Assembly: GCA_036971615.1 (NCBI GenBank)
Contig: JAYKKR010000011.1
Location: 496,001 to 560,000 of the forward strand
DNA: 64,000 nucleotides
Direction: 5' to 3'
From: Amyloporia xantha
Taxonomy: Eukaryota; Basidiomycota; Agaricomycetes; Polyporales; Adustoporiaceae
Notes under the pieces: model-generated
What the model saw: the letters and a program-made list of their open reading frames with translations, nothing else
What the model was told of the DNA's origin: nothing
The model's database searches: none
In this document: piece after piece, positions 3,741-34,696 of the stretch
Numbering within the stretch: position 1 is the stretch's first letter
Layout of the letters: each line of letters starts with the position of its first letter
Position numbers and translations under genes: made by a program

Positions 3741-3743
3741 TGT
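3741..3743. repeat. Left target-site duplication TGT
   Basis: Three bases directly outside the left CACTG end; identical in direct orientation to 34697-34699. Bases further out differ (GCGAC to the left, CGCCG to the right). Confidence 0.75.
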
Positions 3744-4570
3744 CACTGGGTGGAGACTCCTATACTGTATCGACAAATATGGAAAAGAGATAGAAAAGAA
3801 AGTTTAAATCTTGACAGTATCTTTTGCACCTGAGTATGCAAAAGTTATTCTAAACAATAAGCCTATATTTGATACTGACAACTGTGGAAAATATTCTAAT
3901 CTGATTTATAACATCTATTGCATATTCTTTCCAAAATATTTCCAATACTGTTCCAATAATCAAAGACTGACTATTATTGAAAGATGAAGACAGTATTTAA
4001 AATCATTTGCCATACATTATTGGAAATATATTGTGAAACTATTGTGACATGTGTTTCCAATACTTCTCCTATACTCAAAAGCAGAATTATGGAAAGAAAA
4101 TGTGACAAGCAGGACCACTAGTTTCACAAATATTTTTCTATTATAAAACAGATTCAAATATGAAGAGGAAAGTATTTTGGAAAATGGATATATCATAGGC
4201 ATTGCATGAGGTTCCAATGGTTTCTGGTTAAAATTAAGAAAATACAGTCTCAATAGATCAGCACCAGAATATGATTAAGATATTGGGCAAATATTGTAGT
4301 GTCTCTAATATCTTTGCAATACTTTCACAATACTTTTCATATATCAGCTTCACAATATGATCAAGATATTGTGAAAATATTGTAGTGTTTCCAATTATAT
4401 TCACAATACTTTCACAATACTTTTCCAATCCCGCATGGCACAAAATGACAAAGGTTAGTTAAAGTCTATCAGCTTCTATGCATAATGTGAGACATTGTGC
4501 TGACCTGTCATATCTATGTACAAGTCTGTCACTTCTTTGTCATATCTCTGTACAAGTCTGTCACTTCTTT
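3744..4570 (+). repeat. Left terminal inverted repeat, 827 bp
   Basis: Pairs with 33870-34696 in inverted orientation, with no mismatch found at any place I compared. It is strikingly AT-rich relative to the rest of the window. It contains many short subterminal motifs in both orientations, such as TTCCAATA/TATTGGAA and CACAATACTTT. Such repeats are the known transposase-binding sites of CACTA elements. Identity ends inside a 32-bp tandem repeat at about 4570. Confidence 0.88.
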
Positions 4571-4613
4571 GTCATATCTCTGTACAAGTCTGTCACTTCT
4601 TTGTACATGTCTG
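4518..4613. repeat. 32-bp tandem repeat at the inner edge of the left inverted repeat
   Basis: Three units of a 32-bp repeat (TGTACAAGTCTGTCACTTCT followed by TTGTCATATCTC). The right arm has about two units before it diverges. The array straddles the point where the two arms stop matching. Confidence 0.8.
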
Positions 4614-4801
4614 TGCTGGAAATGGCCTGCATTTCAACTCTAACCACTAACATTACTAGTACATGCACACCATATACAACACTAAGACTGAGCTTCGGGC
4701 ATAGGCGGTGTTGTGCCATTCTGAACATGAGTGAACCTGAGCGCAATGCTGGGCGAAACACCATAATGTGAGCCATGAAACAATCTAGATGCACAGCACA
4801 C

Positions 4802-7800
4802 TCACCGCATCACAGCATCTGTATGCGTGAAGTCTATCATAGGTTGCATATCAAGTGCAGCTACAACTTCGGGTCTCTCTTGTCGCATTCGCGCGAGCCA
4901 CTGTGCATCATAACAATTTGCTGGAAGGCCCGGTACCGGATCCCCGTGACGTTCAGGTCTATCTGAACCATATCTGCGAAATCGGGGAAACGCCCCACGT
5001 TTAGGCTTGCCATTAGAATGGAATCTGCCTGACAAATGCATCCAGTCCATGACTCGCAGCCAGTATTCGAACTCAACTGATCGCCAGGCAAGTCTTGTTA
5101 CGATATACCTGACTTGACCATGCGAATGGTCTGATTCATCTCCGCTCATTGCCGTATACGGAATGGCACGCCAGACTTGTCGATATTGTAACAGATCGGG
5201 ATGGCACCTAGTAGTCCTTGCACGGCGTTCCCACAGCTACAGCGGCGCGCAGTCAGTGCGGAGATATCGAAGCAATGGCCGGTGGAACAGAAAGATGCTC
5301 ACATTTCGCCGCCGGTGTTCACGATTTTCGTTCATTTGTCGATCTAGCTCAGCCTGCGTCGGCTCTTCATCACCACGGAGTTGCTTCTGATATTGAGTGC
5401 GGAGTGTACCAAGGTGGACGAGGAATAACTTGCGTATTTTTCTCTTGTCTGTGCTCTCTGCCCATCCCAATTCGACGAAGTCATCTGCAAAAATATTAGA
5501 AGCTTGTTTATTCCAATTTGAGCTGGCGGCTCCGGTCAGGTGCACGCGGAAATCAGACTTCGATGGACCAATGTGAGTCTGGTCTTCAAAGGCCCGAACC
5601 TCAACGTCTGAAGCTACGCAAATAGGGCTATCCACGAATTCGCGTTGCATGAGGGTGCATGCATGCATGCGGACTTTCGCCTATATGCCGGTCTGAGATC
5701 GTCCATAACAAATGTATATGAGGTCATACCTGTAGCTGTAAAGTAGTAAAATCCCTATGCCGTATCTCACATCGAACGCGGATTTGCCCATCAAGACCAT
5801 AGTTGGGAATCGGATGGGACGGCTGTGAAGACGGTCCAGATGGCCCTGCGAGGTTTGGCGGCGTAGACGTCTTGTGTATCATGTCCATCACCATACAGAG
5901 CATCGCATTGATGTCTTTCCTTGTAGCTGGACGATCCTAGCATAATAGATATCAATCAGTGAATATCAGGCTACGCCTGCCGCAAACGTACCCCCGGAGC
6001 TCCGGTCCAATTTGCAATCATGTCATCCTAATAGAAACATTACCGAAAAACACGATGAAAGATCGGATTCCTTACCAATTCTTGTTCTCCATCAATGAGA
6101 TCGGTATTCGCATCGCCTCGTTTCCCGATTTGTGCTGGGCTTTGTGGAGTGGTTCCAAGGCTGACCCTGGAATTCGGTTTCAGTATCATGTCGGCTGCCA
6201 TTGATCCAGCCCTGTCCTCGTCTTCATCATCAGCATCATTGAAATCCATTTCGTCATTAGGCATACTGGCAGTATTGCCCTGGACTTGCTTTTCCGCTTG
6301 TTTCCTGAGTCCAGATGTCAACTCCTTCTTGGTACACTTGCTACGAATATCCCACCGCCGAATAGGGACTTGCTTCCATACATGGCTTGGAGTGGACTCA
6401 GAGTCATCAGCATGCAGAGAAATCTCGGCGTCGTCGAGATTCACAAAAGCCATCTCGATGTCCATATCGTCGAGTCGTAATCCGGCCCATGGTGGTGATT
6501 TCGAGGAGTTCAGCATGTCCGAGACCACATCGCCGTAGAGACATCCAGGCCATTTGGAAATGGCGGGCTCTGATAGAGTGGATATTACGTGCTGACCCTT
6601 GACGCGATTCACGCCGCTCAGCCAGAGACTGCTCGATCTCGGCACAGATGGTTCTCGAACACATGGAGAACTGTCGGACACTAAAGTGTGTGGCGAGCGT
6701 GATTCAGGCGAGTCGAGAACCATGTCATTGAGTGAAACACCAGCCCATGTAGTCACGGGGGAAAGGCGCTGGAGCGAGTCGATCTCGCATATTGGCGATT
6801 CGAATACCGACTCAACCGGCTCAGACTGGTCAATATCCATCTGATCGAGTGAAACTCCAGTCCATTTGTTGGGAACTGAAGATGAAGCACGATCATAGAT
6901 ACCCGTGTTTCCAACCAAGGGCCCTGTTCCTAACGCATCGCGGGCAGGCAAGTCCGACCAATTGTCATTCAAGCGTCCTGCACATGCAGGCGATTGCATG
7001 CCATCCATCGGGGATTGGACAGAGTGTGGCAGTGGAAGCGGGAACGACGACGGAAGTGGAGGCAGAAGCGGGCCATACTCACTGGCATTCATACGCTCGA
7101 TCGGAAGGCCCGTCCATACAGGCGGTTGCACCTCGTGCGTCGGGGACCGGATAGAACGCAATGTTGGAAGTGGGGGCGACGACGGAAGTGGGAACGACGA
7201 TGGGAGCGGGAATGACGATGGAAGCGGGAGAAGAGATGGAAGCGGGCCAGACTCGCTGAGGTTCATGCACTCGAGCGACAGGCCCATCCATACAGGCGGC
7301 TGCGCAACGCCCGTCGGTAATTTGATAGAGTGCGGTGTTGGAAGCGGAGTCGACGACGGAATTGGAGGCAGAAATGGAAGCGGGCCAGACTCATCGACGT
7401 TCATATGCTCGACCGGAAGGCCCATCCATACAGGCGGTTTCGCCTCGTCTGTCGAGGATTGAATAGAGTGCGATGATGGAAGTGGGGGTGACGACGGAAG
7501 CGGGCCAGACTCATCAACATTCATACATTCAATTGGCAGGCCAGTCCATTGAGGCATTTGCGCGATGTCCGTCAGGGATTGGGGAGGGTGCAATGATGGA
7601 AGTGGGGGTAGAAACGGAAGCGGGCCAGATTCGTCGACATTCATACACTCAACTGGCAGGCCCGTCCATTCAGGCGGTTGCGCAACCTCCGTTAGAATTT
7701 GGGGAGAGCGTGACGATGGAAGCGGGGACGATGGCGGAAGCGAAGGTGGAGGCAGAGGCGGCCCAGGCTCGTCGACGTTCATACACTCGATTGGTAGGCC

Positions 7801-10075
7801 CGTCCATACATGCGATCGCACAGCGCCCGTCGGTGATTGAATAGAGGGCGATATTGGAAGCGGAGACAACAACGGAATTGGAGGCAGAGATGGAAGCGGG
7901 CCAGACTCGTCGATATTCATGCATTCGATTGGCAGGCCCATCCATACGGGCTGTTGCGCAGCGTCCGTCAATGATGGGAACGAGGGCGACGACGGTAGCG
8001 GGGGCGGCGACGGGAGCGGGGGCGGCGACGGGAGCGGGAGCGGGAGCGGCGACGGGAGCGGAAGCGATAAGGGAAGCGGGCCAGACTCGTCGAGGTCCAT
8101 GCACTCAAGTGGGAGGCCCGTCCATAGAGGCGCTTGCACAGCGTCCGTTGGGGATTGTATTGTGGGGAACGAAAACTCCACCTGCTCGGACATATGATAC
8201 ATATCCTTGACTGTACTCGCGGGCAAATCTGCATCGGCAAGAGAGTCACCAATCTTAGTCGCAGGCCGCAGGAACCCGGTGGGACCCTGGAAAGATGAAG
8301 ATGGCGGCTCCTCATTGGCCATCTTCTTGCTGAAGATATCAGCCCCCCCTGTTGTTTGTTGTACCAGCTTCTCACAGCCAACATCGTGATCGATGAATAC
8401 GATCCCTTTCGACGTTCCCTCAGTCATTGACGAGTTGATCGCTAGCAATGTTGATGAGGTCCGCCCAGCTTCGATATCAGAGTAACTAGATGTCACATCT
8501 AGAGAAAACGGCCGTATTAATGATGGAAACCTCGAAACACGCAGGTGACTAACTTACCAATATCATTCGAGCCTAAATTGCAAACGAGTGGCACTCCAGC
8601 CACAATCTCAGTCTCTCGCATGCTATCATCTGAGCATGCAGAGGTCTTGCGCACGCACCCGTCTCCTGATCGCAAGTCTCTCGATCGTGCGCAAGTTGGA
8701 GCCGAAGCGTCTTCGACCGGCTTATTTGAGTTTTGCGCTTTAGAAGCTTCTTCCAACTCTTGTTGCCTTGAGACTTCATGAATATGGTTATCACTCTCGG
8801 CAACTGTACACGATCAGTAGCAGAACGAATGAAAACGGCTGCAACATACCGTGAACAATCGATGGAACCTGGCACATGTTGACCAAAGTGCCGTAGACAT
8901 CTTCCTGTCGGTCGGTATCCTCATCTTCACTTGAATCGCCTTCATCTCCGTCTGTGAGCATACTCGGAGTCCACATGACGATTTCAAGCGGGGATGGGAC
9001 AACGACCACGGAACAGTTCGGTAGATCGACCGACTCCCGTGGATCCTCGGAGATGGCCTGCGACGCAGGAAACTTGGGGCGATCACCGTGCATTGTCATC
9101 ACTGTGCTATACACATCCTCGTCTTCACTGTCATCCTCCTCATTACCGCTGTCGTCGATGAGCATATCCTCTGTCCAATGTACCATGCGAAGTAAATCTG
9201 TGATCCGTGAACGTCAGCGGCTGGTAGAGGTCCTCATGCATGCAAATCACCTGTATCTGCACCAGCACTGGTAGCGGTTTTGGATGCGATCTTGGATAAC
9301 TCATCTACTAATAGATTCAGAATTGCAAATCGCAGAGTACCAGTGCACATACCATACGTCTGGCTCTTGCTCTGCATGATTCCCGTACGCAAGGGGGATC
9401 TTAATCGCTCGTCTCCTGGATTACCAATGTCGACGTTGGAGCGTGACAATTCATCTTGAAGAAAGGTATGAGAGTCGCTTAGATCCGTCTGATGAGTGTC
9501 AGGATGCATCATGGGGGTCGTCAGGACGCATGGCCTCTGGATAGCTATGCTAACATTCTTCTCAGGTCGACGATCATTCGGGGGATCTGTGTATGAGGTT
9601 AGTCTATATTGAATATGATCGGTTCAACAATCACCATTACGAGCTTCAGCTCGAGAGCAAGAGGCGCGAGGTTCATTCAGGTCTGGGCCTCCAGAAAGAG
9701 GTATCTTGTTGTCTGTCGTGGCGTCTGTTCCTCCTGCGGTTCCCCGGTTGACATCAGCTTATACGCTTGTACTGCATAAGGGATATACGTACCTACGGCG
9801 GCCACTGTTTCGACCGCTGCAGCTGGGGTTGCTTGAGAAGGTCCCGCAGCAACTGGCTGAGGTAGTATAACGCCCGCCGGCTGAGGCATCACAATCCCTG
9901 TGAACGAGTCGGTGCGTGCGCATTTGTCTGGTTCCGGAGTAAGAGAGGGTGATCGTTTCCTCTTCGAAGAAGCTAATAACTCATGCTCCATTTCAACGTC
10001 GTCAGAGTCTGCTGAGATAGATGAGGGTGCCGCTGGTTTAGACCATCCTTGGACAAAGGCGGTAAGAAACGACAT
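4802..10075 (-). CDS. 1581-aa chimeric cargo protein: W-T-G-L-P repeat region plus conserved C-terminal module
   Basis: Eleven exons in frame: 10075-9793, 9733-9635, 9586-9353, 9307-9251, 9197-8850, 8803-8558, 8498-6076, 6027-5992, 5936-5730, 5680-5303, 5236-4802 (4746 nt). The start MSFLTAFVQGWSKP is the first strong ATG; an upstream in-frame ATG exists at 10189. Residues 1-420 are low-complexity, acidic, with a basic patch SSKRKRSPS (possible nuclear signal). Exon 7 holds eight close repeats of the type WTGLPIECMNVDESGPLP joined by Pro-Ser-Leu linkers, then degenerate ones (WTGVSLDQMDID, WAGLRLDDMDIE). The last 340 residues (AKVRMHACTLMQ; LTGAASSNWNKQ; MSGDESDHSHGQVRY; PGLPANCYDAQWL) match, from memory, a multicopy Agaricomycete family of unknown function. 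The fusion to the repeat region looks unusual. No biochemical role can be assigned. Confidence 0.8.
6830..8130 (-). repeat. Coding minisatellite of the WTGLP repeat
   Basis: Tandem units of roughly 110-170 bp inside exon 7 of the chimeric gene. Each encodes W-(T/M)-G-L-(P/S)-(I/V/L)-E-C-M-N-(V/I/L)-(D/S)-E-S-G-P-L-P followed by a variable Pro/Ser/Leu-rich spacer, then (Q/T)SPT-like residues. The W-motif core is well conserved while the linkers vary in length, so selection appears to act on the core. Confidence 0.85.
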
Positions 10076-10365
10076 AGAGTATGGGAACAGAGAGCATAGC
10101 AATAGACTGGACGAGTTCCACGATGATATGAGAAACTTAGCATCTCCGATTCGGTCTAGACTTTCAACGAACAATGGGAATTCGGACATGGATACATCAA
10201 TAGTTCGGGTAATAAGTATGGACAGGACGAGTGCAGGAAGGAGGTCACGTGAGGGTACGCGACGCTGTGGCGTCGCCGCTGCTAACCAGTATCAACGGTC
10301 TACTAGTACGCAACCAAAGCGTTGCGTATATCACTAAATCCTTTCTACTTCCGAGATTCATAGCT

Positions 10366-11186
10366 TCAGTCGGTACCCTGGGGACTATTCTCATGCTCTC
10401 TGTCGTCGACATCGTCACCTCGCGCGTCACTGTCATCGTAGTCTCGGAAATCCCAGTGCGGTAGATCTTCCTCTCTGACCGTCTTCTGCAATAATACAAT
10501 TCTGCTATTGTCCTTGATGTATGAAGATGCGTGGTTAACTTGCGAAATTCTCGAGAGTATAGCGTATTCACCATCACCTTCTCGTAAAACCAAATCTCTA
10601 AGGCGTCGCCCAAGATGTGTTGATCGATCTCCATCAAACCTAGCAAGAAGAAACAGATACAAGACGCCATAGGTTAGAAATAGATATATATATATTTGAC
10701 TGGCTGAAAAGAACTAACAAGTTAAACCGTATAACAGGCTGTCCGCCGTGACATCGGGGTTAAACCGCCTGATGATCATCTATGTTCTGGTCATTTTGTG
10801 CTGTCAATGGAGTTAAAATAGGTTTGATAACACACCAACATGTCTTCCGGAGCACCTGTATGCTCCTCTTTAGCACCTCTGTACTCGACAGACCATCTGT
10901 TGTCCAACCACATCCTCGGCCCCTCGTCTTCGCCTATCATGGGACGCTGAAGCATAGAGATGTGAATATAGATATGTTTAAGTGAAACGGAAAGGTTTAC
11001 CAAGATGACAAGGACAGAGTCTGAATCAATATCAAGGTAAGTCATTGCTCTGTTCGACCATTCGATTTGCTCTGGTTTGGGAGCTTTGAGAATTTGCAGC
11101 AGGGTGTGCCCAAATATCTGCGCCATGTGCGCCATCGTGGGTGAAAGGCAGAAGTGCAGCTGAGGGCTCGGAATGACCTTCATCAT
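10366..11186 (-). CDS. Hypothetical cargo protein, exon joins provisional
   Basis: Three coding stretches are convincing. The first is 11186 to about 11022 (MAHMAQIFGHTLLQILKAP, then RAMTYLDIDSDSVLVIL). The second is near 10950-10830 (MIGEDEGPRMWLDNRW). The last part reads RFDGDRSTHLGRRLRDLV, then after a 47-nt intron KTVREEDLPHWDFRDYDDSD, and ends in an acidic tail (stop at 10366). The link between the second and third parts (10730-10830) could not be fixed. I recognise no family. It lies head to tail upstream of the chimeric gene, inside the transposon. Confidence 0.5.
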
Positions 11187-11512: not shown

Positions 11513-12175
11513 CTACGGCCGTGCAACAACGGCAAATAGTATGACGAGAATTATGAAAACAACGTATAAGAGAATACGCCTGATATCGCAAAGCGGTACA
11601 AGATCTGGTAACAACGGGACGGGAGCTCCCCGCATCAAGTAAGGCTGGACTTCCACCACTGCCAATAATTGAGCTGCTACCGTCCGAGCACGCTCATGGG
11701 CCTCTTCGGCATGAAGGCCGAAGCACCGAAGGAGTCGCCAGTAGGTCTCGGTACTCGGTAGTCGAACCTGAAACCACTCGCCGCTGAAGTGCCAGCGTAC
11801 TAGAAGGTGAGACTAATGGGGTTCAATATCAGCATTGATCGTATTCCGCCTAATATCGAGCCACTACCTCATGACTTGCAACACGAACAGTCTCGTCGAG
11901 AAGGAGCGCATAGTAATCTGGACCGTTACCTAACGTGGGCTTGGCAATGAGAACGTCTGTCAGAGACCAGCGGTTAAGAGAGGTTTTCTGACATGTACAA
12001 CACATCACTAGGGCTCACAATTCTTGCTCGGTAATTTGGCAAAGACTATAGTAGCAGGCTGGGGCACGCAGGAGCCCCCACCACTGCCAATTATTGCAAC
12101 TTGTTCAGGATGCTTGAAGTCCTCAACGCGTTCCGCAAAAATAATCTCAATTCCACTATGCGTGCTAATTAGCAT
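11513..12175 (-). CDS. Tail-anchored hypothetical protein, 181 aa
   Basis: Exons 12175-12019, 11956-11868 and 11812-11513 sum to 546 nt. The protein begins MLISTHSGIEIIFAE. It has a charged central part (YYALLLDETVRVASHE; RWHFSGEWFQVRLPS; ETYWRLLRCFGLHAEEAHER) and ends in one hydrophobic segment, ILLYVVFIILVILFAVVARP, right at the C-terminus. That is the layout of a tail-anchored membrane protein with its bulk in the cytosol or nucleoplasm. The frame is open upstream of 12175, so an upstream exon is possible. No family recognised. Confidence 0.6.
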
Positions 12176-12797
12176 GTTACGGATGCAAACAGAGAAATTA
12201 CTCGCAAGGGAGCTAGAGGAGAAGGGCCAGCCTGGGAGGACATTATGGTTGAAAACCAAGACCGTATAAAAGAAAGATATGACATGTATGTTGTATGAAC
12301 CGGCGTGGAGTGGTACAGCAGGTTGAGTAGGGATGAGTGTCGGATTGATCAAGGCGAAGAATGTCGTAGGCTTATATCTTGGACTCTGATCGGATTATCT
12401 AACGTTGAACTATGCAATTTTCTTCCATTGTCTACTGACTTGGAGTCCAGCTATTGGCGAGCGACAAAGTCGGAGAGACGCGCCCGGCACTGCAGTGCGC
12501 ACTGGCAGGATGCCATGGCCAGGAGATGCCAGGCCGTCTTGTCCATGGCTTATCTAAGAGGTGATCGGTGATGATCTCAAGATCTCAGATGCAGATTGTC
12601 TTGGGACATCATACGATCGCTACCTGACAACGGCGTTGCGACCTCACATGGACATTGCCATTGTTCTTTCATGCTGTCTTCACCATTGTCTCCTCCAATT
12701 GGAAAACTCGGCTTCTCTGCCTGATAAACTGAGCTCCTGCCCGCTAAAATGTCCGTATACCCTCGCCGTTCAGCATCATAATCACGTCGCAGACTCG
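12176..12797. other. Divergent promoter region, no firm gene
   Basis: Between the tail-anchored gene and the next plus-strand gene. A minus-strand open frame at 12577-12804 (MPSSLRRDYDAERRGY) overlaps the neighbouring start and could not be joined to anything. Confidence 0.4.
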
Positions 12798-13661
12798 ATG
12801 GCACGGCCTGACGCCATGTATTTCGTCTTTACATTCTGCTAGCATTACTGACATTAAACTGCTCTTCATAGTAACATCGTGCATTTCATTACCACGAAAT
12901 GCCGGGTAGTCGAAACCACAGAGTTGATGGTGTCAAATGAGTTCGACGAAGCGGATTCTGTCCATGTTCATCTCGCAATAGTCGAAATTTTCCCGGACAT
13001 GTGTAAGTACCCTACTATCCCTCGTAATTGGCTTCCTACATCTTATGGAGTCTTTGAAAGATTCGGTTATTGCTACTAAACTGTCGACAATCGAAGATCC
13101 CAAGTGCGTCTTCAAAGGTGTGTTCCACCCCGAGTGGCAATTTTCGTGCAACCAGGTGAGTCATGGCAGCTATCTTCGCGCTTCTATAATGCTCAATTCC
13201 ATGAACAGAGCTCCCTGTATGCAGGCTGGTGGATGCCTGCTCGCTGTGCTTTCCTCCAAATACTCTTTGATGACGAGGCAGACTTCTGGGCCTTTACTAC
13301 GACTTACGAGCGCGGACGAGCCCAAGCAGAGATTCATTGGAGGCACATCCTCGCTGCACTACTTCGAGCGCATTTAGAGCTCTACACCCAAACTCCTGCC
13401 ACTGGCTCTTCTCTGTCTATTCGTCAATCGACGACTGCGCGCGAAGTCTCTGCATCGGTTGACCCCTTGGCTGCATCAGACCCGGAGTACGGCACTCAAG
13501 TCTTGGCCACAGAAACAGAAACGGTGGACATGAGTACAATATCCTTGTATCAGCTCCTTCTCCGTGGCTGCCGAGCCATCCGCAGCTGGATCACGGTATG
13601 TGTCGCGGCGTTTGTCCTGTGATCACCAGTTAATTTTTTGCAATAGGCGTCCCGCAACTAA
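12798..13661 (+). CDS. Hypothetical cargo protein, 215 aa
   Basis: Five exons: 12798-12817, 12872-13002, 13061-13155, 13209-13595, 13647-13661 (648 nt). The first exon has only 20 nt and encodes MARPDA. The protein continues NIVHFITTKCRVVETTEL, later FHPEWQFSCNQ and SSLYAGWWMPARCAFLQ, then a helical acidic-basic stretch and a Thr/Ser-rich C-terminal third. There is no membrane segment or signal peptide. I recognise no family. It is divergently arranged to the tail-anchored gene. Confidence 0.6.
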
Positions 13662-13972
13662 GGCAGGGTCTTATATTAGCGTTGCATCTGGTAATGGTAG
13701 AAGACTTCGTATCATAGCTAGTCCTAGACCATTCGCAATACTGCTAGTCTCCGTCTTTACTGTAATCTCAGCGTTGTGTGATATCTCAGTCAAGAGACTC
13801 AATGCGAACGATACATGTACGAACAGTTTCGTATACGGCCAACTTCTGAAAGAGGTTTAGTGTCGCGGAGTGTGTGATAAAGCTCCGCCGCCGCTTTCAG
13901 AGGTCTGTCTGATCTTTTCGCCTCTGTTTTTTCACCCACCCTCACGACGACCAAATACCCGACCCACTTGAT

Positions 13973-14698
13973 ATGCTCGACCCACTCGATACACCCGACC
14001 CACTTAATTTGCCAAACCCAGTCGATATACCCGACCCACGGGGTACGCCTAAACCACTCGATCATTCTTTCAGTGGATATCCATGGGGGAATGAAGACCA
14101 CTACAGTGGACCGTATATGGTGTTACAGGTCCGCTTACTCAGTCTGGGTTTTGCGGGCTATCCCCCGACATGGGGACTATTGGAGCCGCCTCCAGAGAGT
14201 TTGCGGTTGGGACAGCTGGTCGAACTTAGGGAGCGTGAGGACCCGTCGTCGCGTGGCAAAGCGCGCATCCTCGCTATCAGGGTTGTAGAAGACCATTACG
14301 TTGAATTCTGGCTGGACAACCGATGCTACCTCTGCGTCCCACGGTCAGCAACATCCCACCTGATGCCATCGAAATTGGAGACGAGACTCAGTCTCTCGGG
14401 AAGCCTTCGCACCATTGACGGATTTGCGCCGTTCAATTTCTATCCCCTCTTCCGTGAAGTTTGCCCTCGTATCAGCATCCTTCGTGCAATGTATGTGCAT
14501 GCACACACGGACGTGAACACACATGGCGAAGTGGAGATCGAAGAGATGTATAAGAGTGTAGTGAGGGTTAAGAAGGTCATGATTCCGCCGCTGGAAGAAC
14601 CGAAGTGGGCTGGTTGTGGTTCTCGAGTTGCGGATGGCATGGTGACTGTGCCAGGTTCTTCCGGTTCGTGGTTATTTCTCGCAATATTTGCTTATTGA
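13973..14698 (+). CDS. Hypothetical cargo protein with Asp-Pro repeats
   Basis: An open frame of 241 codons. It opens with imperfect six-residue repeats of the DPLDTP / DPLNLP / NPVDIP type (first 30 residues), followed by a globular-looking region (YMVLQVRLLSLGFAGYPP; GQLVELREREDPSSRGKAR; VVEDHYVEFWLDNRCYL; APFNFYPLFREVCPR; KVMIPPLEEPKWAGC). The repeat continues upstream in frame, so the true start may be earlier. A donor near 14652 (CCAGGTTCTTCC) and open frames at 14804-15226 suggest that it is spliced on into hydrophobic sequence; I could not fix the join. No family recognised. Confidence 0.5.
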   Translation: MLDPLDTPDPLNLPNPVDIPDPRGTPKPLDHSFSGYPWGNEDHYSGPYMVLQVRLLSLGFAGYPPTWGLLEPPPESLRLGQLVELREREDPSSRGKARILAIRVVEDHYVEFWLDNRCYLCVPRSATSHLMPSKLETRLSLSGSLRTIDGFAPFNFYPLFREVCPRISILRAMYVHAHTDVNTHGEVEIEEMYKSVVRVKKVMIPPLEEPKWAGCGSRVADGMVTVPGSSGSWLFLAIFAY

Positions 14699-15387: not shown

Positions 15388-15663
15388 TTAGTCGAACAAT
15401 ACTGCCGGCAGTCTGTTCGCGATAGAACAATGGACCAGATCCGTATCCAGCACGATCGCAGGCTGAGATAGCTCGATCGGTAACGTTACAGACTCATTTA
15501 AGTCAAGAAACCCTGAAGTACCCGTTCTCCTCAACGGCTTATCTAACATGCCCAAATCTCCTACTCTGACATACCAGCATCGTGAGCATTTACCTTCCTG
15601 GCAGTGACATCGCGTTCTCAAGACTGTATGCAGGCACCGAGAGAGCCATCAGTAGCCTTGTCC
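15388..15663 (-). CDS. Small hypothetical gene or terminal exon
   Basis: A minus-strand stretch ends with VGDLGMLDKPLRRTGTSG, then FLDLNESVTLPIELSQP and ANRLPAVLFD (stop at 15388). It looks protein-like. An ATG-led upstream piece near 15650 (MALSVPAYSLENAMSLPG) could join it only through a 28-nt intron, which is too short to be normal, so the model is uncertain. No family recognised. Confidence 0.3.
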
Positions 15664-15969
15664 AGACGGGAAAGACTACATTCACCACAAAGTCCTTATT
15701 ATCATGTAGTACGTCTTTTCTTGATCGTGCTTCGGAGTGACGCTTACTACAGTGTTGTAACCCTAGTGCGCCAACATTGCAAAGTTGAAGGGAGTCACCT
15801 TGGTACCCAACATTCTGAACGCGTGAAGAGAGCTTTGATCAAGGAGGTGCGACCGCACGTCATATTTTCAAAATACAGGCGAGTGAAACCGCCGTCTATA
15901 GCAGCGGCGCCGTCGCATCCTCTTTGACAGGGAGGAGGGTCTAATCGTGGCGACCAAAGCGGGGATCAA

Positions 15970-16563
15970 ATGGTATACCTACCCAAAACATGGCGTGGTA
16001 CGCTTGCTGACATATTGAACAGTTATACGACTTTCAACAATGAAGATGGAAATGAAGGTGGTGACGTACGTCCTTGCTCCATGCTTCTGATCCATACCGA
16101 CGCACTGAGAATGATATACACGAAAACCAGCTCCTGTTGCAGCTTTTAGTAGATATACGAAACAGGATATCTGCGTTTGAGAAGTTTGCAGATGGCGATC
16201 AGAGGGCCAGCCCGGCTTGTATGCCCCGGGAGATATCCACTCTTGAGCTGAAGGAGTTACCTATGAGGGTCGAATTCCTCTTCCTGGGTATGATGCGGCG
16301 CCATGAAGACGCACGCAGCGCGAAGCTTGAACGGCAGGTACGCCAGTAGTGATTGTCTTAGCTTGATACTAAACTATCGATGCCAGATCACTAGAAAGAT
16401 ATTACGCGCCATGAATGTGTCGGCCAGCGAAACGGACAACGACATATGGAGTGCGATGGATAGCGAGACAGATGGCGAGATGGACCACGAGACGGACATC
16501 GAGATGGACAGCGAGCCGGACACTGAGATGGATTTTGGGACGGATACTTCGAGTGAAGTGTAA
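15970..16563 (+). CDS. Acidic-repeat cargo protein, 166 aa
   Basis: Exons 15970-16065, 16110-16337 and 16387-16563 sum to 501 nt. It starts MVYLPKTWRGTLADILN. The middle is helical with leucines (ENQLLLQLLVDIRNRIS; LELKELPMRVEFLFLGMM). The C-terminal 45 residues are repeats of E-(T/P)-D-x-E-M-D-x, strongly acidic, ending TDTSSEV. Acidic tails of this type occur in histone chaperones and activators, but nothing else supports that here. Confidence 0.65.
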
Positions 16564-23282: not shown

Positions 23283-23636
23283 TATATGTATAGACTGTAT
23301 ATAAGGATGAAAGCAGGCTGTCTGAAGAGAATCCAGGAAGATAGCGTCATATGTAGTGACCGCGCGGTGAATGAAATATGAGCAATCAAAACATTATATT
23401 TGGTGTGTGCATATCAGGACAATATCCGGCTAGAACGAGGGGACATTGCTAGATTGTATCGCGCGCAGTGACAGCGCGCACAATGGGTCACATCCTAGCC
23501 GCAATGATATGTGACTAGTCACTGAACAGACAAAGGAATACGGACGTACCGAAGCTATGAAAGAAATCCGAAGTCGGCTCGACACTCTCAGATCATCTCT
23601 GCTCTTTTCATTCAGCAACTCCCTACATATCCAACA

Positions 23637-24876
23637 TGCCTGTTGTCAGATTCACCTATCGCGAGCGTGAGTTAGAACCTGAAACTGGTTCATACAGCGT
23701 CCTAAGTTGATCTGATTTAGGTATGCGCGCCGCTCTTATCGCGATCACCAAAGAAGGCTTGCAAGATGTTCCTCTGGAAGCGCTACTGAACCGCAGTGAA
23801 TATACAGGCTACTATAACAGCGAATAGTTACTGAGCGCTTGTAGTCCAACAGCATGCAGAGGAAACAGGCTCACCTGTCAAACGGCTTGCAAGCAGTATG
23901 AATAAGTTGATAATGTACGAGGTACATACCTTCTTTCTCTCTCCATTTCTGTTGCTTGACAAAACTACATCGAAGAGGAGATGTGGTAACGTTATCTTGG
24001 ACGAGGGACGCAAGATGATAACCATCACCCACAAGGGTAGGGAAAGGTCTGTCCTTAAAGTAGCTGCCCATTTCACTGAAGATCAACGACGGTTCAGGTT
24101 CCTCGTCACGAGTGTCAAGCGTGAGGTCAAGTGTAAGAAGATGGATACCGCGAAGGACGCACAGGTAAATTGAACCTCATTAATATTAGGGCAGGTTCTC
24201 ATTACTGATTCTCAATATAAGCTTACAGAAGAGAATTGCATGCTACGCACCGCTCTCTTGAGAATTCTGGATTATGTTGAAAACAGCCCCATCTCCGGGT
24301 ATATTTCGGGCATCGTATCCGCTCGCGACGCAGAATACAACCCGTTGGACAATACGATTTGGGCGTCCACAAGGCCACTTGCACCCTCAACTCACGCATA
24401 CGATATCGGGCTTGACAATGCAAGTGGCTTTGCTTTGGCAGGAGTCGCTCAGCCGCATCGACAAGGGTCCTCGGATAATCTGGGATCGGCAGCTACAACT
24501 GTGAGCAATGCTCAAGATGAGATGGGCCCACCGTCTGTCTTGCAAGATAGTACCGGCGTTGTCCTCGATCGAAGCAGGGTGGATAACCTTATGCAAAATG
24601 TGAGCCCCTACTGTTGTTGCTCAATAAAGATACCCGTGCTGAACACCACATGCCACACGCAGATAGACGCTATGGTGCACCTGGTCTTGCAAAATAATGA
24701 TATGGTGAGACAGTATAGCAGTTGAAATCGCGACATATGCTCACCATGACTAGATGAGCGATATGCTGAGTGCACACGGTGAACGTAATCGAGAGATCAT
24801 GGAGATTGAATGGTGCTACCAGCGTTCGGGATGCAGGTGCGGTGATCGGGAGGGGGAGGCAGGTCCTAGTACTTGA
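23637..24876 (+). CDS. Hypothetical cargo gene, 5' joins uncertain
   Basis: The first exon (MPVVRFTYRE at 23637) splices well to MRAALIAITKEGLQDVPLE, which runs to a stop at 23827. From about 23851 a second block reads HAEETGSPVKRLASSMNKLI, then NVILDEGRKMITITHKGRER, EDQRRFRFLVTSVKREVKC, LTEENCMLRTALLRILDYV and VDNLMQN. After short introns it ends IDAMVHLVLQNNDM and MSDMLSAHGERNREIMEIEW, with TGA at 24874. The two blocks may be one gene with an unrecognised splice or two genes. There is no family match; the C-terminal half looks helical. It sits directly upstream of the transposase. Confidence 0.45.
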
Positions 24877-24990
24877 CTGGTACACGTCCCTAGTGTAACA
24901 AATGAGAATGAGCTGGCGCAAAGCAGTACATAAATGAACTGATCACAAAGAGTCGACGTCTGCAAGTCCAATCTTCACTCTAGTCGCGGG

Positions 24991-25031
24991 GCACGTGAGA
25001 CGCGAATGCACGTGAGATGCGAATGCACGTG
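24991..25031. repeat. Direct repeats with three CACGTG palindromes before the transposase
   Basis: A 17-bp unit GCACGTGAGACGCGAAT is repeated two and a half times, placing three CACGTG E-box palindromes at the start of the transposase frame. It may be a binding site for a bHLH factor or for the element's own proteins. Confidence 0.6.
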
Positions 25032-28000
25032 GGTCTGTTATCGCGTCCTATTGCGTCCTCTCTCGCGATCGCCATTGTCCTTGTCGCCCTGATCATTGTT
25101 CGTGCGGATGCCTATGTACATTATAATAAATGGTATGACTCCCTTCGCTCACCCCGCGCTGCACTCCTGATGTGTCCCCATCTTAGAGGCGGAGTTCCTG
25201 TCGAACAACGTTCTCGCGCATATAAGCCTGCCCGGGTCTTCCTCTGCCAGTGTTGGCAGTGTGCGGCTATATCATCTCTTGATCCTAACACCAACGAGCC
25301 GGTGCGGGGTGTATTTCTAGGCAAAAAGGAGCACGACGAACATCGCCGTCTAGAGTCCGAGAGACAGATCCCACCTCCATTGACCACGTTTCCTGCAGCA
25401 GTCCCTTTCTCCCCTCCGACTTGCGATCCCATAGTCAAAGGCTTTCCTGTCAGGCTTCCTCCTGTCAAACTCGGTCCTGCTCAGTTGGAGGAACAAGTGA
25501 AGGCAGGAAACTGTGTTAAGGCGGAATCCTCCGCTCCTTTGGCAACTCTCGATCTTCCGGACGTAATACTCCGAGAACTAGCAAGCATCAAGGATGAACT
25601 CATCGAGAGGCGCAAGACCGCCGAAGATTATGGCCACCTGGTGTTCGTTTCCCATCCAGACGCATCTTCTGTCCCTATCCTTCTGCAGCCTCGTCAGACG
25701 CACTCCAGAGAGATAAACGACGGCCCATTTGCCCTACGATACGACAAGCCTTGCAACACCTCGCTTCTGTCATATGAAGAATGGTTATTGTCCGCCTTCC
25801 TTCGAGTTGAGGCTCATCTGAAACACAGCCATGTCCACGTCCGACTCCGCTCTTCATTACTTCTGGACGATCTGAAGGATGGCCTGGAAGAAGTACAGAA
25901 CTGGAGGATGGTGGAATGGGAGAAGCAAAGATGCTCTTCCGACTCGCGAGAGGAGCCAGCCGCTTTGAACCCGATGCATGCGAGTGTGATCGCCACCGGT
26001 ACGCCTCATTAGTCCATTCCGATTGTTACTTGTCTGATGATCATGTTAGAGGCATTCCTCAAGCCAGCAGTTTCCGGCTTGGATCCAATTGTCATACTCT
26101 GTTATCTCCTAATATCTGTCCTACACCTTCTCTGCCGTGTTTCAGTCAAGCGCTGCGTCTTCCTACTTGGTAGCATTCGTCTTTTGCTCCAACTCTCGCT
26201 TTCCCGTCAGCAGCCGATGGAGGGTGATACCGAAGCGATTCTGACCAGCATTCCTGGAGATGTGCGCACCTTACTTCAGCGTATGGACGTTCTACCTGTC
26301 ACGAAATCATTTGTTTGTTGCCCGGCTTGCTTCAGCCTCTATCCACTCGAGGCACATGATCCCTATCCCGATCGCTGCACCGCGCGGCGCGCTCCTCTTA
26401 GTCCACCTTGCAACGCCCAGTTGCGCATTACCCGCAAAATCCGGGGTACCACTACTTCCTTTCCAGTTCGACGGTTCCTATATCAAGACTTCAGGCACTG
26501 GCTCGGTCGTCTCCTGTGTCGTCCTGGTATGGAATCAATCATGGACAGAGAACTGCTTTTCCCACACGAAAGCCCCCCGGATAGCTGCGGAGACATATTT
26601 GACACGGAGACAATGCGATCATTCAAGGGATCAGACGGCAAGAATTTCATAAGGCACGACACAGACGAGGGGCGATATGTCTTCAGCCTTTGCATGGATG
26701 GACTGCAACCGCATGGACGAGGTGGCCCTCCCGATTCTGTCGGAGCAATTTATCTTGCGTGTTTGAATCTCCCGCCCGACTTACGATACAAATTCAACAA
26801 CATGTTTCTTGTAGGGATCATCCCTGGACCTCATCATCCCTCGCAAGGCGACATAAACCCCGTCATCAGGCCGATGATTGATGACTTCATCGATCTATGG
26901 CATGACGGTGTCCATTATTCCATGACACCAAGTTGCTCACGAGGAAAACATGTCAAATGTGCGATTGTTCCCCTTGTGTGTGATATACTGGCTGCGCGAC
27001 AGATGGCTGGTTTTACTGTGCACAGTCATACCTTATTCTGTTCCTTCTGCCTCCTTCCACATAGCGATATCGAGAATCTAGACTGGAAAACATGGCCTGC
27101 ACGCACCTCCGATCGTCATCGCCAAGACGCCGAACGGTGGAAGAATGCCGAAAGCGAAGCCGAGCAGCGCGAGATCTACAACAAGACGGGTGTCAGATGG
27201 TCTGAGCTGCTTCGTCTTCCCTATTGGAATCCAATCGAGTTCACTGCACTCGACCCGATGCATGCTCTTTTCCTGAATGGATTCCGCATTCATATCGAGG
27301 ATGTGTGGGGCATCGACGCCAATTACGACGACGATCTAAAAGGTAAAACATTCGACAGAGGCAAGAAGGCACCGTCTGCCGATGACATGCAGGCGGCTTT
27401 CATCACCTTACGCACAGGTACAAAGTCGGCGCTCGAAGCGTTGCGCATTGACGTTCTGAAACAGCTCTGTGTTCAACACGGTTTGCGCTTTGGGGGTGTC
27501 AAAAGCACTCTGGTGCACCGGCTGCAGAATCTTGTAAGTACATGCTACGCAGCGATGGCCTTCACAGTGTAACTTCTATTAACAGCGTCTTGAACGAGCA
27601 TGGATCGACAAGGAAGGCAAAGTAGTTTCTGGAGAACCAAGTGCAGGAAGTATTCTCACTGAGCGTCATGAACAAGTACGGCAGGCGGGGGATGCAGTTG
27701 AAACGAAGACGACCGCGACACTGAATACGTATAAGCGGGCAATACTGCAGGATGTCTGTCTATCCAAATGTGGCGGTGTCGCTGAAGACTATAACGACCT
27801 GAAGAAAGCAGAATTGATCGGGAAGCTGACTGAATATGTAAGTCTTGCGCCCTAGCCGCATACACTCTTATGGTTGATTAACACCTCGTACAGCGTCTGC
27901 GAAAAGGGATCATCAACGCGAACGGGCAGTTATGTCAACCTCAGGTTCCGAAGACGGGCGGTGATCCGACTGTCGATGATATTGCCAAAGGAATGAGGGT

Positions 28001-29979
28001 GTTGAGGCAGGGGACGAATACGGATCTAAGCAAGTTAACAGTGGCAGTGCTGGTAGAGTTGTGTGCCGAGGAGCTACAAGAGGGGCCACGTCAGCACTAC
28101 AAAATGTTTCGGAAACCGGAGCTGCTTGCCAAACTGCACAAATATGTAAGTGAAGAGATCTGTCTCATGTTTGATTGGCTGATCATGTCGTCTACCTATG
28201 GTCAGCGAGAAGATCAAGGACTTGGTAAGATTGCGATGCAACGAGTGGCGGCTGTCTCCAGGACGCAGAGCGTTGCGAACATATCAAGGACGAGCAGCAT
28301 TGTGAATCCTCCCCGCCAAACGACGTCAATGATTTCCGTCAATGGACAGTCGCTGACTCTCGAGGAGCTCGCCAACGCCGAGTACGTGCTTGAACACGGA
28401 GGGAAGACCAAATTTAGGCGTCTAAGCCCGGCTGCCTTATTTGCTCTATGTGAGACGACACTGAAGATGCCCGATGTTGATGGCATGAATAAGGAAGAAG
28501 CTATAGCTGTGCTACACCGATATGTATGTGATTTTTCACCAGTATGTGCCTCAATTGATTCACATGGACCATAGCGTGTTGAGCACCAGATATGCGATCC
28601 AGACGGACTCCTCATTGATAAGGCTTATCATGCTCCCAAGAAGGGAAGAATACTTGGTCGTAACATGATGAATCTCGTCTGGACAGACATGGACAGAGTA
28701 GAGTTGCCGTCATGGGCGACGCGTCTGTCGCATCGGGTGGGCTCAATCAAGGATGCGACGGGCCTGGGCCTCGGGGCTGATGAATGGCGGTCGCTTTGTA
28801 CCGTTTACCTGCCCATGACATTGATCGACGTCTGGGGATCATCACCGGAGTCGTCGCGTGAATATCAGGTACTTACTAATTTCATGGACCTGGTCATCGC
28901 CGTCAAACTCGCTTCAATGCGAGTAACGACTCGTCAAAGACGTCAAAAGTGCCGTGAGTATATGTACAGGTACCTCAAGAATCTACTGGCCATATTCCCA
29001 GGTACGACAATCATAGGAACGCAACATATGATTCTCCATCTTCCTGATGTCTTGGAGCGACTCGGTCCAGCGCAGACTATTTGGTGCTTTGGGTTTGAAC
29101 GGGCGAACTACACCATTCAGCAGACTAGTAGTAATAACAAAATGGGTATGTCCTTTTCGATTTGACTAGCGCCTCAATCGCTCATGAGTTACCACATAGA
29201 TGATCTGACAAGCACTTTGTTGACGCGGTTTTGTTGCAAGCAAGCCTTGCGCAATCTTTTCACTCCGCTCACGCTGCCGCCCATCATCCGTTCACTCCTT
29301 CCCGAATTCTTACGATCGTTCGAGTCTGATGTACGCGGGACTCTTCTCAGCGACATTCTCGCAGGAGACTTACCAGAGCCCGATGATTCATGCGAGGACG
29401 ACCACGACATCAAGGCCAGCGAGCATGTCAAACTTCCGGGACACTTGATATCGACCATCGCCGCTTGGCTAGCCGTACACGACCCTAGAGAAGATACGGT
29501 TGCTGAAGCACCCGTAAATCCGTATGTCCTGCCTCTCGAGCGAGCGGAACATCGTGGAGTCGTATACCGTACTTCTTTCGCCTCCATTGCAGACTCCAGC
29601 GTCATATTTGCTATCGACCAGGATCAGTGGAGAGCTGGCCGCATCAAGCAGATGTTCCGCTACGCACAAGTTCGCAATGGCTTCAAGTTCGAGAGGGTGT
29701 TTTTTGTGGTTCAAGAATATGTCTCATTAACCTCTAATGATCGTATCCGTGACCCTTACAGGCGATTTCCCATTGCTGGAGGACGACTCTTCTATGACCG
29801 ATACAGTACGAGTGATCGACTTCTCATTGCTGATGATATTATCTGTCAGTTTGCATCTATCGCGCGAATTTTGCCAGGAACAACGACCAAGTGTGTCCAT
29901 ATCCTTCCATTGGACAAGGTGAGTGCTATCTCGTAGGTCGGATCCGTAGTTGATCAGTTGCCTTCTCTGCAGTGGTAGA
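25017..29979 (+). CDS. Tnp2-family (CACTA/EnSpm) transposase, 1527 aa
   Basis: Eight exons: 25017-25998, 26050-27533, 27586-27837, 27894-28145, 28206-28523, 28575-29145, 29200-29918 and 29974-29979 (4584 nt, no stop). The N-terminal part has the cysteine-rich LCQCWQC. The Tnp2 core is plain: LPPDLRYKFNNMFLVGIIPG, MIDDFIDLWHDGVHYS, ILAARQMAGF, CSFCLLPHSDIENLDW, RWSELLRLPYWNPIEFTALD, PMHALFLNGF. The C-terminal part keeps LIDVWGSSPES, GTQHMILHLPDVLERLGP and IRDPYRRFPIAGGRLFYD. Between core and C-terminal part lie four SAP-like repeats, each closing at an intron. The start is uncertain: the first 35 codons are hydrophobic and may be upstream sequence. The product would excise and reinsert the element at its CACTG ends. 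The uninterrupted frame suggests a recently active copy. Confidence 0.88.
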
Positions 29980-30537: not shown

Positions 30538-32000
30538 ATGAACATGGATCCTGCGACCATCCTCCCGTTATCCAAGTGCTACTTAAGCCCTGTGGGGATA
30601 CACTCTCTGCGAATACATCTTAATCGAGACGAGAAAACGTACAAGAAATACAAGAAACAGTTCGACACGGCTGACATTGCCTTTTTTGTTGGTGGATTAC
30701 ACGACGATGGACGCCACGTTCTCGAGCGCGACCAACTTCACGACATGTGGAAAAAAGCTCGCGATGGCACAGGTACTCACGCCGCCGGTCGAACAGCGAG
30801 AAATCTATTTCGCCGCCAGTTCGAGGACGTCGTGTTTGACATGGTAAGTTACAGGAAATTTCTGACATTGATATCCCTACTTATGCAATGTGTAGCTAAC
30901 CGCGTATGATCGCATGACTGGAGGATCCACGATTATGGTGCATGTCGACGGTAGTCAGGCTCCGGGGGCCCCCGTAGTCCCAGAGCAGATGCGGGCCCAT
31001 GTTTACTTCAACCCTGCCTTGCGAAGCGAGATGCCGGAGACGTCTATCAGCATAGCGAAGATTGTTCAAGAGTTTATGGAAGGAATGGCTGTACCGGCCT
31101 TGTTGAGATACAGGCGCGCTACGACAAAAGTTGGCTTCGATTTCGACGCAATGATCGGAACGATCTCCAACTTACGCCCTCCAATCAGTCAGCCCCTTAT
31201 TCCTTCGCCTCAGCAGGGAACACACTATGTCTTTTGGGGCCGTCCTCCTGGAGAGCTGGAGGATCTTATCGAGGCGTTTCGCGATGATATGGCGTGGAGA
31301 CAGGGCCCTATTGCCTCCCCCGGCATTCGCATTGAGAGGGACCACCGTATCGAAGAACTTGATCGAATGCGCGATGAAGTCCTCCGATTAACGAAGATCA
31401 ATGCCGATCAGGAGAACGAAATCGACGCTCTGCGTGGGCAACTCGAAACTCTATGTCGTCAGCATGGTATGAATTCGTTCACACATCGGGTTATGTTTGT
31501 ACTGACGAGCTTTCACATTCCTGATAGGACTGACACCGTCCCGAGCAGGATTGACACCACCTCCGGCGCCCCGGTTTGGTTCAATTGCCCGCGCGGTACC
31601 ACCTACCGTGCTCGCACCCGCACCAGTCGTCCACAATGCCGTTCCTACTGATGTCTCATTGTCGGAGACCATCAGTAGTGTTTCTTCCATCACTCCGTCT
31701 GTCTCGCGTTCGTCTGACAGACTGCCCGCTGCGCCCCCATCCACCCCCGCGCAAGGATCCAAGTATATGCAACGGCTTTCGACGTCGCATGATCGATTCA
31801 CTGAGTATGGCCCTCATACCGCGACACTGATTCGCGCCAAGGGCCTCAAGAACGGCGTTCATCGATGCTTATGGGACATCGAGCGGGCCGTTGTTGACAC
31901 ACGTTGGGCACCAGAGCTGGAACTCCGTTTGGCATGCTCTGAGGAGCTTGCCGAAGAACTTGCTGCTGCTATGAGACGCGATGCACCTCTCTTGTTGTAG
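30538..32000 (+). CDS. Coiled-coil accessory protein of the CACTA element, 449 aa
   Basis: Exons 30538-30843, 30896-31466 and 31528-32000 sum to 1350 nt. It begins MNMDPATILPLSKCYLSP. An N-terminal globular part (DIAFFVGGLHDDGRHVLERD; ARNLFRRQFEDVVFDM) is followed by a coiled coil near residues 240-290 (RIEELDRMRDEVLRLTKINA; ENEIDALRGQLETLCRQHG). Then comes a Pro/Ala/Ser-rich linker and a C-terminal helical part (HTATLIRAKGLKNGVHRCLW; LACSEELAEELAAAMRRDA). It lies 558 bp downstream of the transposase on the same strand. Plant CACTA elements carry a second, DNA-binding TnpA-type protein; position and coiled coil fit that role here, but there is no sequence proof. Confidence 0.7.
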
Positions 32001-32440: not shown

Positions 32441-33827
32441 ATGCCTCTGCGGTACACCTCGAAGGCTGTGCTTGCTGACGAGCACCACGACTCGATCAAC
32501 TGTGTCGCGTTCAGTCCCGATGGTAAATATCTAGCGAGTGGAAGCACTGACAACAAACTTATAATCTGGTCTGTCTGGTCTGGTCGAGCGTTGCATCGAA
32601 TCATACCCAAGTCTCCGGTCCTAACAATCGTGTGGCCCAAAGAGCCTGTGCGCATCTTAGCGGGCACCGCGGACGGGACCTTATTGATGGCTATGTTTGA
32701 TGAGGTACGGTTGCGCTTGCTGCATTGAACATTATACATGTCTCATTTTGAACAGGATGTGGTAACCGTGCTGGGAATCCATGTGCATGAGAGACCGATA
32801 GAGTCCATGTCCGTCAATAGTCGACTCCAGTTGGCATCCGCAGCTTTTGAGGTCATCAAGCTCTGGACATGGAACCATGAAGGCATGTCTTCTGCAGAAG
32901 ATTATCTATCTATTACTGTCACCATTTCACTGATTCATGACTAGCCAGCAATTGGGCTGCCGATGATCAGCTCAAGATACCATTACCAAATTCAAATACC
33001 CTTAATGGCAACAATGACATAGTAGTCACCTCACTACAGTGGTTGAACGAGCCAAATGCAACATGCCTTGTGGTCTCGTACTTGTACCATGGGATTGTGT
33101 CAGTATTCGTCTATATCATATTAAATGAGTGTTTGACTAGTGAAGATTCACAGGTGTTGGCAGCTAGATGAAGTACCAATATTTCCTGTGTGGTCCATTC
33201 ACACTCCTTTGTGGTAAGTTTATCTGATGTGAAAATGAAAATTTGCTGATATCCCAAAAGTGGCTCTTGTAGCATCTCTTCTGACAATCGCCTACTTGCT
33301 GCTTGTGACATCACCTCAGGCTTCTTGCTCCATCATATACCCTCGGGGTTGCAGAAGTTTGTTCTTAATGATCCCAATGAACAATATGGAAAGGTTTTAC
33401 CTGTCAAGTTTATACACAATGGATCCATGCTACTTGGGGGTAGCACAAGTGGAAAATTAAGAGTATGGAATTGTAATGACGGCAGTGTGGTGCATACTCT
33501 TAGGTACAAAGGTATGAGCCTCATAACTGAGTTACATGATCACTTCAACTCAGTTCATTCATAGATGAGAGTATAATTCAAGCAATAGCAGTGTGTTCCT
33601 TCTGACAATATGTTGAATTATTGACTGAAATACACTCTAGGCCCACTACATAGCTACAGTGGATAGATTCTATATTGCAACTGGTACTAGCAGTGTTGAC
33701 TCCAACAATCAGATTCAGATTTGGGAGACCTCAGAAGTTGGTATGTGATTGTCACAGGCACTCCAGATTTTGTAATGTGAATGGAGATTGGCTATTGTAC
33801 AAATATTGTGCAGGCAAACTTGTATAG
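32441..33827 (+). CDS. WD40-repeat cargo protein, 331 aa
   Basis: Eight exons: 32441-32704, 32756-32882, 32945-33098, 33154-33213, 33261-33511, 33565-33590, 33641-33740 and 33814-33827 (996 nt). WD repeats are clear: [82 protein letters not shown]. It lacks the repeats of a full second propeller and ends abruptly GKLV, 43 bp before the right inverted repeat. Intron 2 has a GC donor (GCATGT). From about 32900 the gene becomes much more AT-rich than its 5' part. It is a predicted scaffold protein; partner unknown. Confidence 0.8.
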
Positions 33828-33869
33828 GTATGACAGTATAGTTATGACAGACTTGTACAGATATGTGAT

Positions 33870-34696
33870 AAAGAAGTGACAGACTTGTACAGAGATATGA
33901 CAAAGAAGTGACAGACTTGTACATAGATATGACAGGTCAGCACAATGTCTCACATTATGCATAGAAGCTGATAGACTTTAACTAACCTTTGTCATTTTGT
34001 GCCATGCGGGATTGGAAAAGTATTGTGAAAGTATTGTGAATATAATTGGAAACACTACAATATTTTCACAATATCTTGATCATATTGTGAAGCTGATATA
34101 TGAAAAGTATTGTGAAAGTATTGCAAAGATATTAGAGACACTACAATATTTGCCCAATATCTTAATCATATTCTGGTGCTGATCTATTGAGACTGTATTT
34201 TCTTAATTTTAACCAGAAACCATTGGAACCTCATGCAATGCCTATGATATATCCATTTTCCAAAATACTTTCCTCTTCATATTTGAATCTGTTTTATAAT
34301 AGAAAAATATTTGTGAAACTAGTGGTCCTGCTTGTCACATTTTCTTTCCATAATTCTGCTTTTGAGTATAGGAGAAGTATTGGAAACACATGTCACAATA
34401 GTTTCACAATATATTTCCAATAATGTATGGCAAATGATTTTAAATACTGTCTTCATCTTTCAATAATAGTCAGTCTTTGATTATTGGAACAGTATTGGAA
34501 ATATTTTGGAAAGAATATGCAATAGATGTTATAAATCAGATTAGAATATTTTCCACAGTTGTCAGTATCAAATATAGGCTTATTGTTTAGAATAACTTTT
34601 GCATACTCAGGTGCAAAAGATACTGTCAAGATTTAAACTTTCTTTTCTATCTCTTTTCCATATTTGTCGATACAGTATAGGAGTCTCCACCCAGTG
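33870..34696 (-). repeat. Right terminal inverted repeat, 827 bp
   Basis: Reverse complement of 3744-4570. It ends CCACCCAGTG at 34696, then the target duplication TGT at 34697-34699. Confidence 0.88.

Follow-up and report, generated by a model that had tools for sequence, protein, structure and literature searches.

How does a DNA transposon come to carry a block of genes as long as that between positions 3744 and 34696 of the window (the whole stretch of DNA analysed, 64,000 nucleotides), and are these genes chance passengers or part of the transposon itself? We are highly confident that the block is a giant unit of EnSpm/CACTA type, one of several related units of 31-36 kb that share a kit of genes. 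The relatives in the same genome, which is probably fungal, include a second element to the right of the first (C3b) and three copies of another family (C60, C23 and C13). The borders of the window element are as follows.

3741..3743, no strand: left target site duplication TGT, read from the sequence
3744..4595, plus strand: left terminal inverted repeat (TIR), starting CACTGGGTGG, AT-rich, with 32-bp tandem units at its inner end
33845..34696, minus strand: right TIR, terminating CCACCCAGTG
34697..34699, no strand: right target site duplication TGT, read from the sequence

Read inward from 3744 and from 34696, both ends start with CACTGGGTGG, and their GC content is 0.31. The initial annotation had given CACTG termini, TGT on both sides, a span of 30,953 bp and inverted termini of 827 bp, all of which the sequence bears out: the outermost 827 bp of the two arms are identical, and the repeat extends to 852 bp with 3 mismatches (849/852). 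The inverted ends are not a product of chance. In the 46.8-Mb genome the end sequence was found at its own two sites and otherwise as one 107-bp match of 77%. The search for further copies with the same ends that had been proposed gave no other copy apart from that match, and the companion check, for an empty site joining 3743 and 34700 with a single TGT, found no such junction within the window, where it was sought.

Some features of the surrounding DNA may be recorded here. Three stretches (1527-3236, 36050-37205 and 38302-40046) are repeated, 78-80% alike; the first contains a short-chain dehydrogenase match, and the element sits between the first and the second. A MITE-like short foldback (3529-3640, with 30-bp arms 97% complementary) precedes the insertion by about 100 bp on its left side. 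Farther to the right, 49749-52618 and 62646-63992 are related and partly inverted, with identity reaching 98% over 740 nt; they are perhaps duplicated genes or another element.

To which class does the element belong? The termini are CACTG in the window, C60, C23 and C13 elements and CACTC in C3b, and the 3-bp duplications match at all five elements of which both ends were read (TGT, CCC, ATA, CGA and TAT). In the transposase of the window element Pfam recognises Tnp2 (PF02992, 1.7e-13; 50.7 bits, where the cut-off is 28.6) together with SAP (1.8e-5); among Tnp2 homologues, the best 120 of 528 were listed. It contains the strings CMDG, VCDI, CSFC, DPMHALFL and FERAN, whose residue roles are in part our presumption. 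One criterion for EnSpm/CACTA is a DDE triad in which C(2)C and H(3-4)H separate the second D from the E, and for this the strings provide candidates; the roles are otherwise assigned after the available text of PMC12730594. By its ends, its duplication and its Tnp2, the window element is an EnSpm/CACTA transposon. The ends of Plavaka, given as TGT..ACA or CATCA..TGATG in the same text (PMC12730594), differ from those of the window element, which are CACT..AGTG. No tyrosine recombinase captain of the Starship kind came up in 20 partly overlapping Pfam queries drawn from a selection of the ORFs of the window element.

EnSpm/CACTA elements have a second protein, TnpA-like, which binds the subterminal repeats. 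Where two transposition proteins had been counted in the window element, Tnp2 stands, and for the second place gene A could be a candidate. Tnp2 had also been called open: it is present, but its frame is broken by intron-like gaps, so that it is open only if the predicted introns hold. Most likely, Tnp2 would excise and insert the whole block between the long TIRs with a 3-bp target duplication, a chemistry extrapolated from the family; the footprint of TIRs and 3-bp duplication is the observed part of this cut-and-paste proposal.

The genes were delimited with a home-made gene finder together with stop-to-stop open reading frames (ORFs), and the exon links are predictions. About a dozen predicted genes besides Tnp2 were estimated in this way, in agreement with the earlier count of about a dozen further genes, and the description as one mobile DDE/CACTA unit bearing them is supported by the TIR, the duplication, Tnp2 and this estimate. 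Pfam named the domains Tnp2, SAP, SUN, nucleoplasmin-like plus FKBP and WD40; the remaining queries of the window element gave no domain above the curated cut-off. From left to right, the genes are these.

4805..8621, minus strand: gene A region, with conserved C-terminal exons at 4805-5936 and the string MSGDESDH
6040-8621, minus strand: long repetitive Pro-rich ORF upstream of the gene A exons, possibly the same gene, with uncertain exon links
8791..11186, minus strand: further ORFs (8791-9512, 9677-10189, 10366-10634 and 10794-11186)
11516..12394, minus strand: g12, ORFs of a small protein that by eye is hydrophobic over a C-terminal stretch
12927..13679, plus strand: ORF cluster without assigned function
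13973..14698, plus strand: ORF of a 241-aa protein without assigned function
15548..16563, plus strand: small protein without assigned function, one ORF of which is common to the C3b element (3e-7)
16692..17508, minus strand: g17, a conserved protein with relatives within C3b and the C60-family elements
17654..19572, plus strand: CC, a coiled-coil-like protein whose C-terminal part has a single strong hydrophobic stretch and then a tail of about 16 aa
19742..21260, minus strand: nucleoplasmin-like plus FKBP protein (PF17800, 1.5e-15; PF00254, 4.6e-11)
21840..23282, plus strand: SUN-domain protein of 463 aa (PF07738, 4.9e-21) with one weak hydropathy peak
23636..24876, plus strand: ORFs of a protein without assigned function
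25017..29936, plus strand: Tnp2 transposase gene (PF02992, SAP) with several predicted introns
30841..32000, plus strand: ORFs of a protein without assigned function
32441..33745, plus strand: WD40 protein, adjoining the right TIR

Within the Pro-rich ORF region, a unit of about 137 nt occurs eight times at 7028-8172, its open frame reading as a Pro-rich repeat, and repetitive ORFs precede gene A in the C3b element as well. A model of the 122-aa ORF of g17 is all-beta (pLDDT 77.9) and has no accepted fold match.

Which of these genes belong to the transposon? One comparison is with C3b (C3:573706-609819; 36,114 bp), a neighbour of the window element 43 kb farther to the right. The TIR of C3b (CACTCCGTGCATGG) differs in sequence from that of the window element, its duplication is CCC/CCC, and its ends are identical over the first 369 bp, followed by a divergent tandem array (89% over 845 columns). 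It contains Tnp2, gene A, g17, SUN and WD40, all shared with the window element; its Tnp2 is 44-45% identical to that of the window, and its WD40 gene likewise adjoins a TIR. At 1e-5, 14 of 634 ORFs inside the window element matched the fetched 50-kb stretch of C3b, against 0 of 755 outside; in the opposite direction, the window was matched by 12 of 722 C3b ORFs from inside that element and by 0 of 283 from outside it, always at places within the window element. These counts cover ORFs of at least 30 aa, with border-crossing ORFs set aside (9 in the window and 11 in C3b), and they exceed gene numbers because ORFs overlap on the two strands. Judged from these matches, the genes common to the two elements end at the TIRs.

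What might such genes do for a transposon? The best solved relatives of the window SUN protein, in a solved-structure search, are SUN1 (1.8e-18) and SUN2, and its single weak peak is one span of 19 residues at hydropathy 1.74. SUN proteins, components of the LINC complex, reside in the inner nuclear membrane and bind tail-anchored KASH proteins. The middle part of CC is coiled-coil-like according to sub-threshold Pfam matches, and its layout, with a putative tail anchor and a short C-terminal peptide, would be KASH-like; a canonical KASH ending was not seen. Outside the window, CC has a match in C12 (5.8e-11) and nowhere else among the candidates scored; in C12 a similar hydrophobic stretch is visible by eye at the expected place in a piece that ends before the stop. 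In C3b, the gene directly after SUN also encodes, by eye, a hydrophobic stretch and a short tail, and its similarity to the window CC (phmmer, 0.014 against one target) is not significant. C3b further encodes a HeH/LEM protein (PF12949, 1.4e-8; one of nine scanned ORFs with a domain above the cut-off), whereas HeH was not found in the window element or in the relative C34. Together, SUN, the layout of CC and the HeH/LEM protein of C3b suggest a nuclear-envelope theme.

On this basis a mechanism can be sketched. Element-made SUN and membrane proteins would attach either the DNA of the element or its transposition complex to the inner nuclear membrane, with the tail-anchored coiled-coil protein perhaps serving as a KASH-like partner and gene A perhaps as a DNA-binding partner, and this tethering would help the element to escape silencing, to find targets or to travel with nuclei. 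That the kit acts as an element-made tether at the nuclear envelope is the likeliest of the roles considered, though a tentative reading. Its fuller form, in which the transposon family would encode its own nuclear-envelope bridge (SUN with a tail-anchored KASH-like partner, and HeH/LEM in one member) and so fix its DNA in place or transport it, perhaps from one nucleus to its partner in a fungal dikaryon, we regard as conceivable but doubtful. No recognised SUN gene was found in the C60, C23 and C13 elements by the genome SUN searches, Pfam included, which score best candidates only, so that absences are soft; as these units have nevertheless moved, SUN would not be needed for moving or for the basic transposition machinery. 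An anti-silencing kit could also be imagined, in which the nucleoplasmin-FKBP, WD40, SUN and HeH proteins alter chromatin or position with no physical tether. The nucleoplasmin-FKBP and WD40 domains are indeed present, and TET/JBP in fungal EnSpm and Plavaka elements offers a precedent (in the available text of PMC12730594), but escape from silencing does not itself account for SUN and HeH proteins; it is a possible explanation, although an unlikely one. A SUN-domain gene in a mobile element would make it directly testable whether transposons manipulate nuclear architecture.

How far the load is shared can be judged from the genome as a whole, in which Tnp2 has 13 loci above 200 bits. All but two of these 13 (C21 and C33), hence 11, have gene A no more than 70 kb away, and all 11 gene A loci are so placed, three of them with weak matches of 1e-5 to 2e-4 (C45, C7 and C29); relatives of gene A adjoin Tnp2 at 10 loci further to that of the window. 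For g17 there are 12 matches including that of the window, nine in regions with a Tnp2 above 200 bits (that of C13 being 80 kb away) and three outside them (two on C58, and one at 1752k of C23, 10 kb from a weak Tnp2 hit). Seven of the nine SUN loci recognised by Pfam lie within 61 kb of a Tnp2 above 200 bits, and an additional weak SUN match on C45 is 35 kb from Tnp2. The other two, at C60:624k (outside the C60 element) and on C58 (44 kb from a weak Tnp2 of 51 bits), may be host genes. In the fetched 70 kb of C34, matches at 1e-5 were found for 31 of 634 inner and 3 of 755 outer window ORFs; the three outer ones are one short repeat at 54.9 kb, and at 1e-10 the numbers are 14 and 0. The nucleoplasmin-like part matches C34 at two places (3e-8 and 1e-7), and g12 matches it weakly at two. 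No TIR pair was found around this relative within the 70 kb, so that it is no proven unit.

Trees were made from alignments anchored on the window protein. That of Tnp2 places the window with C12, C34 and C3b (support 98) and the C60 family with C59 (100). Within the former group the branches of the SUN tree have poor support, and the SUN proteins of C33 and C21 group with C60:624k (83), which is 39% identical to the window SUN, against 38% for that of C3b; as far as such a tree can tell, it would fit one capture of SUN by the elements or several. As side observations, C33 (L017/L019 and L040/L043) and C21 (L016/L020) contain inverted same-contig pairs of Tnp2 or SUN regions, 99.7-99.9% identical, which are inverted duplications or assembly foldbacks. 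The Tnp2 regions of C29 (L015) and C7 (L018) are near-identical too, at 99.9% over 4.1 kb, and gene A is almost equally far from Tnp2 in both; they perhaps represent a second recently active family.

Gene A and g17 are thus present in all three TIR-defined families, and SUN and WD40 in the window element and C3b. Could the load still be passenger cargo, host genes captured occasionally by a CACTA element in a Pack-CACTA-like or Starship-like way and without a role for it? Nucleoplasmin-FKBP (window) and HeH/LEM (C3b), each in a single element, and several ORFs are not found in every element, gene order varies between the relatives, and the C60-family units are without a recognised SUN, all of which fits such cargo. 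Against it, gene A and g17 are found again within the TIRs of elements that have a Tnp2 of only 35-45% identity to that of the window, SUN and WD40 lie inside C3b, and the sharing with C3b ends at the TIRs; we consider cargo of this kind improbable as the whole account. Since several of the extra genes occur in strongly diverged relatives as well and, for C3b, end at the TIRs, the load is in part a conserved kit rather than swapped or chance cargo. Of the Starship-like lifestyle that the initial annotation had seen in this element, the giant gene-carrying mobile unit stands, but the swapping of cargo does not for this part of the load.

Do such units move whole? The C60 copy (536878-571109; 34,232 bp; duplication ATA), the C23 copy (1591819-1626053; 34,235 bp; CGA) and the C13 copy (343729-445944; 102,216 bp, with about 68 kb of extra DNA inside; TAT) all read CACTGGGGGCAGAATATAATG at their six ends. 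Around Tnp2, over 4.3 kb, C60 is 99.86% identical to C23 and 99.25% to C13. Among 33 C60 probes of 80 bp, all 5 inner ones match all three loci and all 28 outer ones match C60 only, and probes taken close to either end also have an inverted match close to the opposite one. The six flanks (about 0.8 kb each) show no mutual match in 15 of 15 comparisons, so that the copies are not alleles of one site. A unit of about 34 kb that is present at three unrelated sites, with a different 3-bp duplication at each, indicates that such units move whole, and on this comparison of sequences unit mobility is demonstrated for the relatives; the window copy, with its own TIR and duplication, is very probably mobile as a unit too. 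That the block was never a unit, its inverted ends being an assembly artefact or two solo elements, is extremely improbable: the near-perfect arms, in single copy in the assembly, and the inverted pairs on C33 and C21, which could be foldbacks, are compatible with it, but the duplications match at five of five elements and three dispersed copies of one family have unshared flanks, which opposes it for the relatives, as TIR and duplication do for the window copy. There is thus a DDE/CACTA system that moves 34-kb blocks whole, with 31-36-kb relatives in the same genome carrying about a dozen genes.

How does this system compare with known ones? The EnSpm/CACTA superfamily has the same CACT ends, 3-bp duplications and a Tnp2 with a CxxC string, whereas the present elements reach 31-36 kb with about a dozen genes including a SUN-domain gene. 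The initial annotation held that no such system had been described, which is too strong, since giant EnSpm elements with accessory genes are reported from red and brown algae: 16-20 kb with 4-5 ORFs in the red alga Chondrus (as cited in PMC6431247) and up to 15.2 kb in Ectocarpus (PMC12477816). Likewise oversized, these are about half the size, with fewer genes and in other hosts, and no SUN or WD40 kit is described for them in the available portions of the two articles. Giant KDZ elements, which reach 30.3 kb in Ectocarpus and 31.7 kb in Chlamydomonas (available text of PMC12477816), are of the same size class, DDE-type and with accessory genes, but differ by transposase group, and the 20 Pfam queries gave no KDZ domain for the window element. 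In the TET+ EnSpm, Plavaka and KDZ elements of fungi, many copies have kept a captured TET/JBP gene, for which silencing escape has been proposed (available text of PMC12730594); that gene is a dioxygenase, of which the same Pfam scans of the window element gave none. Teratorn and Mavericks are giant DDE-type elements too but with virus-like genes (PMC6431247, in its available portion), of which these scans of the window element gave none. Starships are also giant gene-carrying mobile units of fungi, but with a tyrosine-recombinase captain; nor are they confined to ascomycetes, as had been assumed, for the available text of PMC13066641 reports them in the basidiomycete Tremella. Within the accessible open-access PMC literature, which leaves subscription papers and Repbase outside its scope, no description of a SUN-carrying transposon or of such a kit was found. 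The novelty of the present system lies in the size and the conserved kit of an EnSpm/CACTA element.
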